Notes under the pieces: generated by a model
The model's database searches: none
Told to the model about the DNA's origin: nothing
Seen by the model: only the letters and a program-made list of their open reading frames with translations
From: an uncultured Alphaproteobacteria bacterium
GTDB taxonomy: Bacteria; Pseudomonadota; Alphaproteobacteria; HIMB59
Direction of reading: 5' to 3'
DNA: 64,000 bases
Assembly: GCA_902575065.1 (NCBI GenBank)
Contig: CACGPU010000001.1
Coordinates: forward strand, 62,001-126,000
Made by a program: the position numbers and the translations under genes
Part shown: positions 13,736 through 20,471 of the stretch, piece by piece
Layout: every line of letters begins with the position of its first letter
Position numbering within the stretch: the stretch's first letter is position 1

Positions 13736-15346
13736 TTAAAACGTATAATTAAATTCTTCTATCCAAGGTTCGAGTTGTTTTTTAAAAGAACTTAAATATT
13801 TCTCATAATTTTTCCATCTATAAGATGAATTACTATATAATGGTTTAATAACTTGAGAATAACTGGGTGTATTGATTTTTACTCTAGATAAGGCAGTATT
13901 CTGATAGTTAATTAGGTCATTTTCCCATTTTAGTTTCAAAAATGATAAAGTGTTTGTAATTTCAGATCTAAAATTACTAATTAAATTCTCATATTTAATT
14001 TTATGAATATCTAATGAATATCTTTTTTGACACAAACTAATAAATTCCATCTCAATACAGTAAAACTCAACTATTCTCTCCATATCAAGTAAATTAGACA
14101 TTGGTGCGTTTAGTCTAAAATTTTGCATCCAGCAACTTAAAATACAATCAAAAGGGTGTCGTAAAGCAAGAATAAATTTTGAATTTTGAAATATATTACT
14201 TATTAAAGGTAATTTGATTATATTTAATGGAAATTTATCAATAATAACTTTTTTATCGTCAATATTAATATGATTTTTAAGCTCCTTAAAATAAAATTTA
14301 CTTAAATTGTTTGCCATAGAATTATCTATGCTTTCAATTTCAGAAATTTTTATTGTATTACTAAAAGCATTTTCCATTTTAATAACCATAGGTTGTTCCT
14401 CAATTACATTAATCTTTGAATGAGTTCTTAAAATAGTATCTAAAAGAGTTGTACCTGACCTAGGGAAACCAATAAGAAAAATAGGATCAATTGGATGATT
14501 AATTTTATTTTTTTCATATTTTTTATTAATTTCTAGAAGCTTTATTTGATTTACTTTATCCACTTGGTTATTAAAAAATTTATCAGCTATATTTTTACTA
14601 TAAGATGAGTCAAGTTTGATTGCCTGATTCATTTGTTTATATGTTTCAAAAGCCAAGCTATAATTTTTTGTAATATCATATAGATCAGCTTTTAATTTTA
14701 AAAAACTTACTTTTCTATCATTTGATAGCTCTAATACTTTAACTTTTTCTAAGGTAGCTGATGATAATTCATACATTTCTTTTCTAAAAAATAGAAGAGC
14801 TTTAAAGTATAAAAAATGTGATTTACCATTTTTTATATTCATTAAAGCGTCATTAATTACATTTAAAGCACTGTCTAAGTTGTTAGTTCTTTCAAGCAAT
14901 TGACATAAATGAATATAAGCTTCAAAATAATCAGGTTTTATAGATATTGCCATTCTATAACTATCTATAGCTTCATCTGTTTTACTAAGTTTATGAAAAG
15001 TATTTCCAAGATTGAAATGTGCTGCAGATAAATCTTTATTAAATTGAATAGCTTTTTTTAGAGTAATTTCAGACTCAATAAGTCGATCCAAAGACTGTAG
15101 AACAAAACCTAAATTATTAAGTGCATATGCATCTTTGGGAGATAGCTCAACTGCTTTCCTATTTGCTATTTCTGACTCAGATAGTCTTCCAGTTTGTGCA
15201 AGAATAGCTCCAAGAATTTTCCAACCAAATTGATTATTAGGGTATTCCTTAGTAATTAATACGGCAATTTTTTCTGCATCCTTTAAAAGACCTCTTTTAT
15301 ACAAATCATCAAGTTTTTTTATTTCTTTTTGAAGCATGTTTTGCAT
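13736..15346 (-). CDS. TPR-sulfotransferase fusion protein
   Basis: About 536 residues from the ATG at 15346. Residues about 10-215 hold tetratricopeptide repeats (AHFNLGNTFHKLSKTDEA and similar). The C-terminal half is a sulfotransferase (Sulfotransfer_3-like) domain with the PAPS 5'-phosphosulfate loop FLIGFPRSGTTLLD and the 3'-phosphate strand KFILALRHPFDCILS. These bacterial fusions transfer sulfate from PAPS to an unknown acceptor. An upstream in-frame TTG at 15364 exists, but those codons are part of a guaA-derived fragment, so I choose the ATG. The fragment ends TGGGAGTAA just before this start and supplies the likely ribosome-binding site. Confidence 0.85.
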   Translation of the reverse strand: MQNMLQKEIKKLDDLYKRGLLKDAEKIAVLITKEYPNNQFGWKILGAILAQTGRLSESEIANRKAVELSPKDAYALNNLGFVLQSLDRLIESEITLKKAIQFNKDLSAAHFNLGNTFHKLSKTDEAIDSYRMAISIKPDYFEAYIHLCQLLERTNNLDSALNVINDALMNIKNGKSHFLYFKALLFFRKEMYELSSATLEKVKVLELSNDRKVSFLKLKADLYDITKNYSLAFETYKQMNQAIKLDSSYSKNIADKFFNNQVDKVNQIKLLEINKKYEKNKINHPIDPIFLIGFPRSGTTLLDTILRTHSKINVIEEQPMVIKMENAFSNTIKISEIESIDNSMANNLSKFYFKELKNHINIDDKKVIIDKFPLNIIKLPLISNIFQNSKFILALRHPFDCILSCWMQNFRLNAPMSNLLDMERIVEFYCIEMEFISLCQKRYSLDIHKIKYENLISNFRSEITNTLSFLKLKWENDLINYQNTALSRVKINTPSYSQVIKPLYSNSSYRWKNYEKYLSSFKKQLEPWIEEFNYTF

Positions 15347-15433
15347 TTCTTTACTCCCACTCAATAGTTGATGGGGGCTTACTAGTTATGTCATATATGG
15401 CTTTATTTTTCCTGGGTACTATATTAACTAAAT
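15347..15433 (-). pseudogene. remnant copy of guaA 3' end
   Basis: On the minus strand this non-coding gap reads in frame as [20 protein letters not shown] then WE and a stop, against [20 protein letters not shown] then WE in the real guaA. At DNA level 15355-15397 matches 17453-17495 with one mismatch over 43 bp. Upstream codons (NLVNI) still resemble guaA (HIINK) but are diverged, so the piece looks like the end of a foreign guaA allele rather than a recent local copy. It fits exactly between the stop of the VCBS gene and the start of the sulfotransferase gene. Confidence 0.88.
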
Positions 15434-15438
15434 TAAAA

Positions 15439-16929
15439 CTAAAATACTTTAGCATATTCCATCAACTCTTTATTACCAATTTTGGTAAATAATCCTTGTC
15501 CGTTGTTAATGTACACATCGTTATTACCTTTAACAAAATGATGTCCATTTACCATAAAATCAATATGCCCATCAAAATTAACATCTAGTGGATGTAATGA
15601 GAGATACCAACCATTTTCATCATGCCCAACTTCAGACTTTGGCCAATTTTCTTTATTAAATTTTGTTACACTATGAATTGAATGTTGCCAAAATATAGAA
15701 AAATTACCATCACCATCATTTATATAAGTAATTAAATAACCACCAACATAATTTAGACCAATAGTAGAACCAACAATGTCCATATCTCCATCATTATCAA
15801 TATCAGCAATCATAGTACCGACTGGATTACAAAGTGGAATTTTGTCTTTAGTCTTAGTGTGATACCCCACATTCTTTATTTCTTTTGAGTTTTTAGTGTT
15901 CCATTTGTTGGAACCATCACCCCATAGAATTCTAATATTATGTCTTTCTTTATTTTTAGCATTATGACCTGCCCAATTGTTGTGATAATTGAAGCAATTA
16001 GAGCTATGTCCACCAGACAGTATATCTATATGACCGTCTCCATTGAAGTCTGCATGTCTCGCTAAGAAACCGAACTGATTTGCACAAACGGTACTTTTCA
16101 TTATGCCTTTACCATCATTAATAAGGCATAGCATTTCACCGTTGCTTCCTTTCCAATCAATACTGGCAAGAATGATATCCATGTCACCGTCTTTATCGAA
16201 ATCACCCGCATCAGCACGGTGTGAAAAATTACAAAGTCTTTTGAACTTTTTATTATAGTCAGCTCCACTAATATGCGTTGCACTTGACTCTTTTAAAAAA
16301 CCTTCAGGTTGGGATAAAAAATACGAGTGATAACCCCCACAACCTGTTCCAAAATCATTTACTGCTGCTGCCAAATATATATCATCCCAACCATCACCAT
16401 TAAAATCCGCAACAAGTGGTTGTGCTGTTCCACTTTGAATAAAAGGTAAATTGTCTTGTATAAGACCTGTACCCCAAAAAGATTCATCACCTTTAGCTCT
16501 ACCAGTTTTTGATTGACCAAGAATAATTTGATAATTGTGTTGAGTTACTCCAGCTTCTGCTAAACAAGCGCCGGAGTTTTTATCAGCTTTACAAACATAT
16601 ATCCCAAGATTTGGATCTAATTTTTGTTTAAAATTCTTATCAAGATTAAGAACTGTTACAACATAATCCTGCACACCGTCTCTATTAAAATCACCAGTCG
16701 CTATAAAATCGTGCAGAGTAAACCAAGGCTGTGATTTATCATATGCTAATAATTTAGCAAGGAATTGATCTTTGAGTATTTTTTTTGGGATGAGCCATTT
16801 TTTTTTATCACTGTTAGCCTCTCCCCATAAATATATTTCATCAAATCCCTGACCTGCCTGAAATGGTAAAATCTTATCAGCTTTAGCAAAGCTAAAAGTA
16901 AACAAAAAAATTACTAGAAAATATTTCAT
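15439..16929 (-). CDS. secreted FG-GAP/VCBS repeat protein
   Basis: About 496 residues from the ATG at 16929, beginning with a signal peptide (MKYFLVIFLFTFSFAKA). At least six calcium-loop repeats of the DxDxDGxxD type are visible, for example DFNGDGWDDIYLA, DFDKDGDMDIILA, DFNGDGHIDILSG, DIDNDGDMDIVGS and DVNFDGHIDFMVN. This is a beta-propeller built from FG-GAP/VCBS repeats, expected to be periplasmic, outer-membrane attached or secreted, with an adhesive or recognition role. The in-frame TTG at 16947 is rejected as start because it lies in a short guaA-like fragment. It sits between two guaA-end remnants. Confidence 0.85.
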   Translation of the reverse strand: MKYFLVIFLFTFSFAKADKILPFQAGQGFDEIYLWGEANSDKKKWLIPKKILKDQFLAKLLAYDKSQPWFTLHDFIATGDFNRDGVQDYVVTVLNLDKNFKQKLDPNLGIYVCKADKNSGACLAEAGVTQHNYQIILGQSKTGRAKGDESFWGTGLIQDNLPFIQSGTAQPLVADFNGDGWDDIYLAAAVNDFGTGCGGYHSYFLSQPEGFLKESSATHISGADYNKKFKRLCNFSHRADAGDFDKDGDMDIILASIDWKGSNGEMLCLINDGKGIMKSTVCANQFGFLARHADFNGDGHIDILSGGHSSNCFNYHNNWAGHNAKNKERHNIRILWGDGSNKWNTKNSKEIKNVGYHTKTKDKIPLCNPVGTMIADIDNDGDMDIVGSTIGLNYVGGYLITYINDGDGNFSIFWQHSIHSVTKFNKENWPKSEVGHDENGWYLSLHPLDVNFDGHIDFMVNGHHFVKGNNDVYINNGQGLFTKIGNKELMEYAKVF

Positions 16930-16937
16930 TTCTTTAT

Positions 16938-16956
16938 TCCCATTCAATAGTAGATG
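16938..16956 (-). repeat. short guaA 3'-end remnant (second copy)
   Basis: Nineteen bases match the guaA terminus at 17453-17471 with one mismatch and encode STIEWE before a stop on the minus strand. Beyond 16956 the similarity to guaA ends abruptly. Together with 15347-15433 it makes three guaA ends in 2.1 kb. This copy and the distal one also share the following bases TAAAGAAATG, which include the start codon of the cargo gene. Confidence 0.75.
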
Positions 16957-17023
16957 CTAAAAATATAATTGTTTATCAACTATTTTAAAGCCATTTTTTA
17001 AATTGTGTAAGTTTTGTGTAAGT

Positions 17024-17448
17024 TTAATGACCATCATATTTCTTAAGTAGATTATCAAAATTTCTTATTTTCTTATAAACATTACTTTTTTTATCGTATT
17101 CAACTCTCCAAAAAGGAAAGTTGGGGCATTCAAGTTTTAAATATTTTGTTTCTATAAGTGAATAATCTATTGCCAATCTTAGAAATATACCAAAAGTTAC
17201 TGGACAAGTATTATCCGCTTTACTTTTTTTAGCCAATTTTAGTCTAATATCTTTAAAGTTATACTTTTTGGTAGAGGGAGTTTTTTTAATAAATTTTATA
17301 ATATCTTTTGGGGTTGATATGAGCATTAATTCTCCTTTTTTCATATCAGCAAAATTAAAATCTAATTTTTTAATTTTTGGTAAAAATTCTCTATTAAATT
17401 TCTTAAATGTTTTTAATTCATCAATTGATAATTTTGTAATATCTAAAT

Positions 17449-17452
<4 letters not shown>
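17024..17452 (-). CDS. hypothetical protein coupled to guaA
   Basis: About 142 residues from the ATG at 17452, which overlaps the guaA stop in the sequence ATGA. A GTG at 17458 is possible but lies inside guaA. The protein is basic, with no signal peptide, membrane segment or motif that I recognise; it holds a single CP and a PNFPFWRVEY segment near the end. The overlap puts it under translational control of guaA. It is the first of the genes placed behind the guaA terminus, and in this position its origin is probably accessory like the others. Confidence 0.6.

Positions 17453-20471
<3,019 letters not shown>

Follow-up and report, generated by a model that had tools for sequence, protein, structure and literature searches.

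Putative integrase-free single-gene cassettes downstream of guaA in HIMB59 and other Alphaproteobacteria

The region analysed belongs to an uncultured alphaproteobacterium of the HIMB59 lineage (assembly GCA_902575065.1, contig CACGPU010000001.1, positions 62,001–126,000 of the forward strand); the whole stretch of 64,000 nucleotides is referred to below as the window. In the window, the GMP synthase gene guaA is followed by a 513-bp unit, which contains a single 142-aa gene and ends in a conserved site composed of two arm repeats and a copy of the guaA end. This unit and its counterparts in other genomes are probably integrase-free cassettes, each carrying a single gene, that a tyrosine recombinase acting in trans has placed at guaA one after another. 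An original prediction, made from the sequence alone, had proposed serial additions of single genes to the guaA end. The proposal is supported, although a precise, site-flanked mobile unit was demonstrated in the window only for the 142-aa gene.

The 513-bp unit downstream of guaA

The features of the guaA end and of the unit in the window are as follows.

17449–18987, minus strand: guaA (GMP synthase; Pfam GMP_synt_C and GATase), the 3′ end of which is the insertion target
17451–17470, minus strand: left core copy ATCTACTATTGAGTGGGAAT, inside the guaA 3′ end
16936–17448, minus strand: mobile unit of 513 bp, reaching from the guaA stop through the second core; the core copies are 515 bp apart
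17024–17452, minus strand: cargo gene carried by the unit (142 aa, counted from the ATG), AGT/ATL-like according to weak profile and fold matches
16936–17027, minus strand: recombination site of about 90 bp (arms CTTACACAAAACTTACACA, spacer, core), delimited by alignments; it scores 84.9 bits with sequence model R1 (described below), being one of the 10 sequences that built the model
16936–16955, minus strand: right core copy ATCTACTATTGAATGGGAAT, which contains the 19-bp fragment of the original prediction

Three copies of the guaA terminus, each in front of a different gene, had been predicted, and both points were borne out. Within the 6 kb downstream of guaA, the closest matches to the 20-bp core agree at 19 of 20 positions (16936–16955, one mismatch) and 18 of 20 (15353–15372, two mismatches), and the next closest at 13. 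The genes that follow the copies encode a 142–144-aa protein, an FG-GAP/VCBS-type protein (496–502 aa) and a TPR-sulfotransferase (536–542 aa). The 19-bp fragment is a real core copy, but its description was incomplete, since it is the end of the conserved site of about 90 bp. When the core was sought with up to two mismatches in 60 genomes (the window's own and its relatives), all the core places among the matches listed were at guaA, except G043:C2 and G008:C7; a reversed control pattern gave no matches.

The DNA of guaA and downstream of it was compared in 40 loci, 29 from the same genus and 11 from a second family of the order. The guaA loci of G044, G045 and G054 and the 90 bases of G032 stand outside this set, and the loci of G002 and G014 stop short of the fixed flank. 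A fixed gene order would have spoken against serial additions; instead, the 29 same-genus loci show 20 arrangements, as defined by open reading frame (ORF) cluster and length, or 18 once start-site variants are merged. Ahead of the fixed flank, 76 ORFs in the 40 loci are directed along guaA and four against it, a count that omits c17, the fixed minus-strand gene of the second family.

Ten of the 29 same-genus loci and one of the 11 second-family loci carry the 142-aa gene. Its block, counted from the guaA stop up to and including the second core, is exactly 513 bp long in 10 of these 11 carriers and 502 bp long in G027. The unit has spread horizontally: the copy of G059 (family f2) is 98–99% identical to the commoner allele, found in G000- and G015-type genomes, and the guaA bodies are 67–68% identical. 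A second allele (G013, G005 and G019) is 92–93% identical to the first, and the ratio of non-synonymous to synonymous substitution rates (dN/dS) of the cargo gene between the two alleles is 0.15. The right neighbours of the unit are of five kinds, namely the VCBS gene, a 101/105-aa gene, a TPR-sulfotransferase gene, a 64-aa cassette (in G529 and, as a stub ahead of a 650-aa gene, in G019) and the native second-family flank (G059 and G496). Among 18 genome contigs retrieved by the 142-aa protein, the pattern used found the second core in 16; of the other two, L107 has a one-base core variant and L108 terminates within the unit.

The left core copy matches the variants of the host's own guaA (ACAATTGAG in G059, ACCATAGAG in G019 and ACCATTGAA in G496), unlike the right copy, which is nearly constant between genomes. 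Empty and filled sites (G017 and G013, G022 and G531, G056 and G508) are joined at the identical base. Taken together, these three observations place the exchange in or next to GAGTGGG. This 7-bp centre is flanked by the inverted triplets ATT and AAT, as is expected of a tyrosine-recombinase core. In G019 (L047), the last 90 bp or so of guaA are about 80% identical to those of relatives, compared with 94–97% for the gene body, so that the gene ends in a foreign-looking allele.

The arm-and-core site, related units and distribution

In alignments, the conserved right end of the unit comprises a pair of TTACACA repeats, a spacer and the 20-bp guaA-like core; the repeats, or arms, are 11 bp, or one helical turn, apart. 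Model R1 was built from 10 such sites, and matches of 74 bits or more were taken as strong. It gave 22 strong matches in 21 of the 162 genomes of the order, all downstream of guaA in the loci examined; 10 of the 22 built the model and 12 are independent, some of them near-identical to a built-in sequence. Weaker matches in the order were mostly the guaA end alone or chance-like. The distance from the first arm to the core, measured at 14 sites, is 72–74 bp in 13 of them and 63 bp in G359, under an expression that permitted a wider range; this count covers neither the altered-arm sites of G030, G059, G529 and G496, which the expression does not read, nor G251 and G366. The same TTACACA arms occur in an unrelated phage contig (L109, 1978–1997), where they flank a stretch that is tRNA-like by eye and adjoins a confirmed integrase. 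The position of these repeats beside an integrase supports an arm-type role, as a single case.

Units with the same kind of site carry varied cargo. In G534 (L102), guaA is followed by an array of a 1,214-bp unit with an FkbM methyltransferase gene, the 142-aa unit and then a TPR-sulfotransferase gene; G531 has an 815-bp unit encoding a 75-aa zinc-ribbon protein. The FkbM and zinc-ribbon units share 206 of 236 bases at their right ends and 189 of 232 in the left alignment, which includes about 80 bp of guaA; their cargo genes differ. A site is also borne by the 64-aa cassette of G508. Longer relatives of this cassette are found in G529 (with a broken reading frame) and G050, and only its start is found in G402, G023 and G019. 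Downstream of guaA in G030 (L056) lies a 445-bp unit containing a 103-aa ORF with an ASQAD-type repeat on the opposite strand. A defence-gene scan of six cargo proteins returned the Fic protein of G402 and a weak match for the FkbM protein. In the same G402, the region downstream of guaA (L220, 8290–12349, minus strand) encodes Fic-domain and multi-treble-clef (DUF4379) proteins, a defence-like cargo.

Across the class, the spaced arm-and-core pattern occurs at nine places in eight of 385 genomes, the window's own included; the reversed control gave none. The pattern place lies on the same stretch as guaA in G326, in G178 and at one place in G315. Model R1, applied to the class at E 0.1, gave matches in 60 of 385 genomes, mostly by chance; G402 scored 28.2 bits. 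The guaA-linked matches of this search were only those of G402 and, after reading, of G326, G178 and G315. Among 18 genomes of the family of G402, G550 has guaA, a 210-aa ORF and the site in succession. In the phylum, the spaced pattern was found in two of 259 genomes, the window's own and G691, a member of another class, with no match for the reversed control. The order in G691 is guaA, an FkbM methyltransferase gene, the site and a gene that we take to be sfsA-like. The site geometry behind guaA extends to other alphaproteobacterial families and to one genome of another class.

Two further observations concern these distant sites. In G178 (L242, 1304–1389, minus strand), a complete arm-and-core site ends 126 bp past guaA with no gene between, resembling an almost empty cassette. 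In G315, contig L237 terminates exactly at the site behind guaA, and L238 begins 238 bp ahead of a second copy (239–322); the contig ends suggest a longer array split in assembly.

Other genes of the locus and their expression

Between guaA and the fixed aminotransferase gene of the window, the 142-aa gene is followed by three further accessory genes, all four lying on the minus strand.

15439–16929, minus strand: second accessory gene (c28), FG-GAP/VCBS-type protein (Pfam FG-GAP), with no arm-type site of its own
15347–15433, minus strand: diverged guaA tail, 58 of 69 bases identical to the guaA tail of the window
13736–15346, minus strand: third accessory gene (c33), TPR-sulfotransferase (Pfam Sulfotransfer_3 and TPR)
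12858–13613, minus strand: fourth accessory gene, Methyltransf_24 (Pfam)
11516–12703, minus strand: aminotransferase (c2; Pfam and locus comparison), which in this genus bounds the variable block on the right as a fixed flank

In the loci where it occurred, c28 was always downstream of the 142-aa unit, and in L100 a close copy of the Methyltransf_24 gene lies directly 3′ of c28. The VCBS and TPR-sulfotransferase genes may have arrived by the same route as the 142-aa unit.

The 87-bp fragment at 15347–15433 resembles the guaA tail beyond chance, as originally predicted: the maximum over 200 shuffles was 37 identical bases, compared with the 58 observed. As for its allele origin, an alignment of guaA ends places it closest to the tails of its own clade. 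A guaA tail, with no arm site in front, lies downstream of the VCBS gene in G000 and G027, and the G027 counterpart is more decayed. Because of this clade affinity and the more decayed counterpart, the fragment is best read, from the alignment, as a displaced and decaying local guaA end left by an earlier event.

The 142-aa gene starts within the guaA stop codon (ATGA overlap). The suggestion that guaA-end bases act as ribosome-binding sites for the cargo is weak: by eye, a Shine-Dalgarno-like GGAG lies at a usable distance in front of the TPR-sulfotransferase gene only. No terminator-like site was detected in 13500–19200, where shuffled sequences average 1.5. With the shared gene orientation, this fits read-through from guaBA into the cargo genes, which is plausible.

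The 142-aa protein aligns with its homologues at 24–32% identity. Of five homologues, one matches PF01035, the alkyltransferase DNA-binding family, at E 0.016, which is below the cut-off, and the other four do not match. The fold model has a mean predicted local distance difference test (pLDDT) score of 89.5, and the top Foldseek matches of the model are ATL/AGT proteins (best E 0.22). The single match in a PDB sequence search (E 0.39) was attributed to chance. The protein is assigned, with low confidence, as AGT/ATL-like.

Proposed mechanism and comparison with known systems

In the proposed mechanism, the guaA 3′ end would serve as attB in a reaction of the tyrosine-recombinase type, with the crossover in or next to GAGTGGG. 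Units of about 0.45–1.2 kb, each made up of a single gene plus a site (a guaA-like core preceded by two TTACACA arms with an 11-bp spacing), would recombine with guaA as circles; the circular junction of the 513-bp unit would be the right core joined to GAATTTAGATATT. An incoming unit would provide the last codons and stop of guaA along with the cargo, and the old core would shift to the far side of the unit. Repeated insertion would stack the units, the newest adjoining guaA, mostly in the reading direction of guaA.

No recombinase gene was found at the loci checked, as the original prediction had stated. PF00589 gave no matches within 16 kb downstream of guaA in the 40 loci, and a profile of 17 integrases gave none in 21 further stretches (19 with the site, including L239 and L240, the G251 and G366 places); as a control, the profile recovered five of five integrase-holding contigs. 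Since no examined unit carries a recombinase, the enzyme would have to act in trans; a phage or island absent from these genomes is its probable source.

Matches to PF00589 occur in 58 of the 60 genomes. Beyond the common Xer-type copies, 17 stretches, a part of the relatives' extra matches, were read; these may include IntI-type genes. A tRNA gene lies within about 350 bp in 10 of the 17, and L244, L248, L256 and L258 contain isolated words resembling an arm or a core. The window itself contains a 424-aa tyrosine integrase (48817–50091, minus strand) adjoining tRNA-Arg (50405–50481), and related-looking 487-aa integrases adjoin tRNA-Val/Asp in G024 and G010; these look like a separate, tRNA-targeted island system.

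Eight scans of viral contigs were made. The exact core matched once, within a large phage ORF, by chance. A degenerate guaA tail retrieved seven contigs of other bacteria, none with a TTACA/TTACG-type arm pair; L084, L085, L086 and L090 among them have an integrase gene near guaA. The arm repeats retrieved eight contigs, one being L109 with its tRNA-like stretch, the others having no guaA core near the arms among the matches listed. The palindrome retrieved two contigs, both unrelated. The cargo protein and three further patterns gave no match.

Several points weigh against the proposed cassette mechanism. No circle or movement has been observed. No recombinase with matching arms was found: the eight viral-contig scans yielded no helper, none of the 17 stretches with other PF00589 matches combines an arm pair with a guaA core at up to 600 bp from the gene, and searches of phage, plasmid and E. 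coli collections returned weak AT-rich matches at most. Neither the VCBS nor the TPR-sulfotransferase gene of the window has an arm-type site of its own, though both vary between genomes. The unit DNA of G013, G005 and G019 is just 92–93% identical to that of the remaining carriers, and G030 has the sole site-bearing unit seen with a reversed ORF. In the class, the pattern places of G231 and G359 and the other place of G315 are without guaA on the stretch read; those of G251 and G366, with spacings of 62 and 84 bp, were not seen beside guaA and are probably due to chance.

An unlikely alternative is that the units are cis-mobilizable remnants of larger guaA islands or prophages that have lost their integrase and transfer genes, so that decay, rather than active cassettes, is being seen. 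Integrase-bearing contigs at guaA do occur in other bacteria, and the available part of a review (PMC5704250) describes cis-mobilizable elements (CIMEs), accretion and guaA-inserted elements. The decayed guaA tails at 15347 and in G027 and the stubs in G025, G023, G019 and G402 would also fit. However, the 513-bp unit is fresh, being 98–99% identical across two families, with intact ends and a cargo dN/dS of 0.15. Two units with common ends carry different single genes, and the guaA blocks checked yielded no integrase.

It is very improbable that homologous recombination in conserved flanks has exchanged a flexible island without any site-specific enzyme. The guaA and aminotransferase flanks are conserved in the genus, and fixed-position islands are described for this order in the portion of PMC10734472 consulted. 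The evidence on the 142-aa, FkbM and zinc-ribbon units contradicts such an exchange: families with guaA 67–68% identical and with unrelated right flanks share a base-exact left junction, local guaA variants are retained up to the core, and a 90-bp site marks the right end. The VCBS and TPR-sulfotransferase genes could still have been exchanged in this way.

The two remaining alternatives have almost no probability. A true integron, with attC cassettes moved by an IntI integrase, would account for single-gene units stacked beside a fixed site mostly in one orientation, but four sites folded on both strands showed nothing attC-like beyond shuffles (z −1.25 to +0.51), the locus has no integrase gene, the core is the guaA end and the arm repeats look phage-like. 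A rolling-circle (ISCR-like) or single-strand transposase targeting the guaA end has in its favour the reported terIS end of CR2, which starts within the guaA core (PMC9376610, in part) and which the units of G531 and G534 loosely resemble at their left end (GGGAGTAGTGGnnTGG); the same source, as far as consulted, shows movement via a tyrosine integrase and att sites, the core here has inverted triplets around a 7-bp centre, and no transposase of this type came to notice at the locus, where no profile search was made for one.

A wider form of the cassette reading is more tentative. It is possible, though hardly the likelier case, that an integron-like cassette system without an integrase exists throughout the phylum, with guaA as the platform, arm-and-core cassettes read together with guaBA and the recombinase brought by the delivering vehicle.

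The question of how streamlined ocean bacteria with little mobile DNA exchange genes is open, and a 0.5-kb unit that holds a single gene, lands at a fixed base and brings no enzyme is about as cheap a vehicle as possible. Such cassettes would explain the spread of single genes, including methyltransferases and the alkyltransferase-like gene, between families. Their site can be sought with a simple spaced pattern, and they raise the concrete question of which helper enzyme reads the TTACACA arms.

Among known systems, integron cassettes likewise consist of single genes that mostly share one orientation, bear a recombination site on the 3′ side and are stacked beside a fixed site; they differ in that here there is no IntI at the locus and no folded attC, the site being attP-like, with arms and a guaA core. 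CIMEs and tandem accretion are alike in that att sites flank the element, recombination genes are lacking and stacking takes place at the gene-side att. As in CIMEs, attL and attR are kept and integration genes are absent, transfer genes being judged from the ORFs seen; unlike CIMEs, the present units are not visibly decayed from a larger element but recurrent, with common ends and different single genes. No remnant genes of an integrative and conjugative element or an integrative and mobilizable element were noticed in the units. The pdif (dif) modules of Acinetobacter plasmids, according to the partial accounts consulted, are also small and are moved by an enzyme whose gene lies outside the module; they use Xer/dif sites, mainly on plasmids, whereas the target here is one chromosomal gene end.

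Tycheposons, with their cargo forms, are small integrative elements in streamlined marine bacteria that target tRNA genes and carry a recombinase. The cassettes are likewise small and occur in streamlined marine bacteria, but at guaA and with no recombinase. The name tycheposon appears in the accessible part of PMC12416821. The consulted portion of PMC10734472, on islands of this order, mentions neither guaA nor integrase, and no description of such guaA cassettes in these bacteria was found in the open-licence literature, as far as its texts were available.

The nearest precedent is GIsul2/CR2-sul2. According to the available text of PMC9376610, CR2-sul2, a unit lacking an integrase, is moved at guaA by the integrase of GIsul2, the core being GAGTGGGA. 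This core is present at the guaA 3′ end here, as in GIsul2-type elements; the guaA target, the integrase-less att-bounded unit and the regeneration of cores on insertion are also alike. The present units differ in their size of 0.45–1.2 kb, in having one gene each and other cargo, and in their occurrence in streamlined marine Alphaproteobacteria; they are stacked with no integrase-bearing island at the locus and have no tyrosine integrase of their own. The known kind here is site-specific integration targeted to guaA, and the new form is that of recombinase-free single-gene units, stacked at one base and found across distant lineages.

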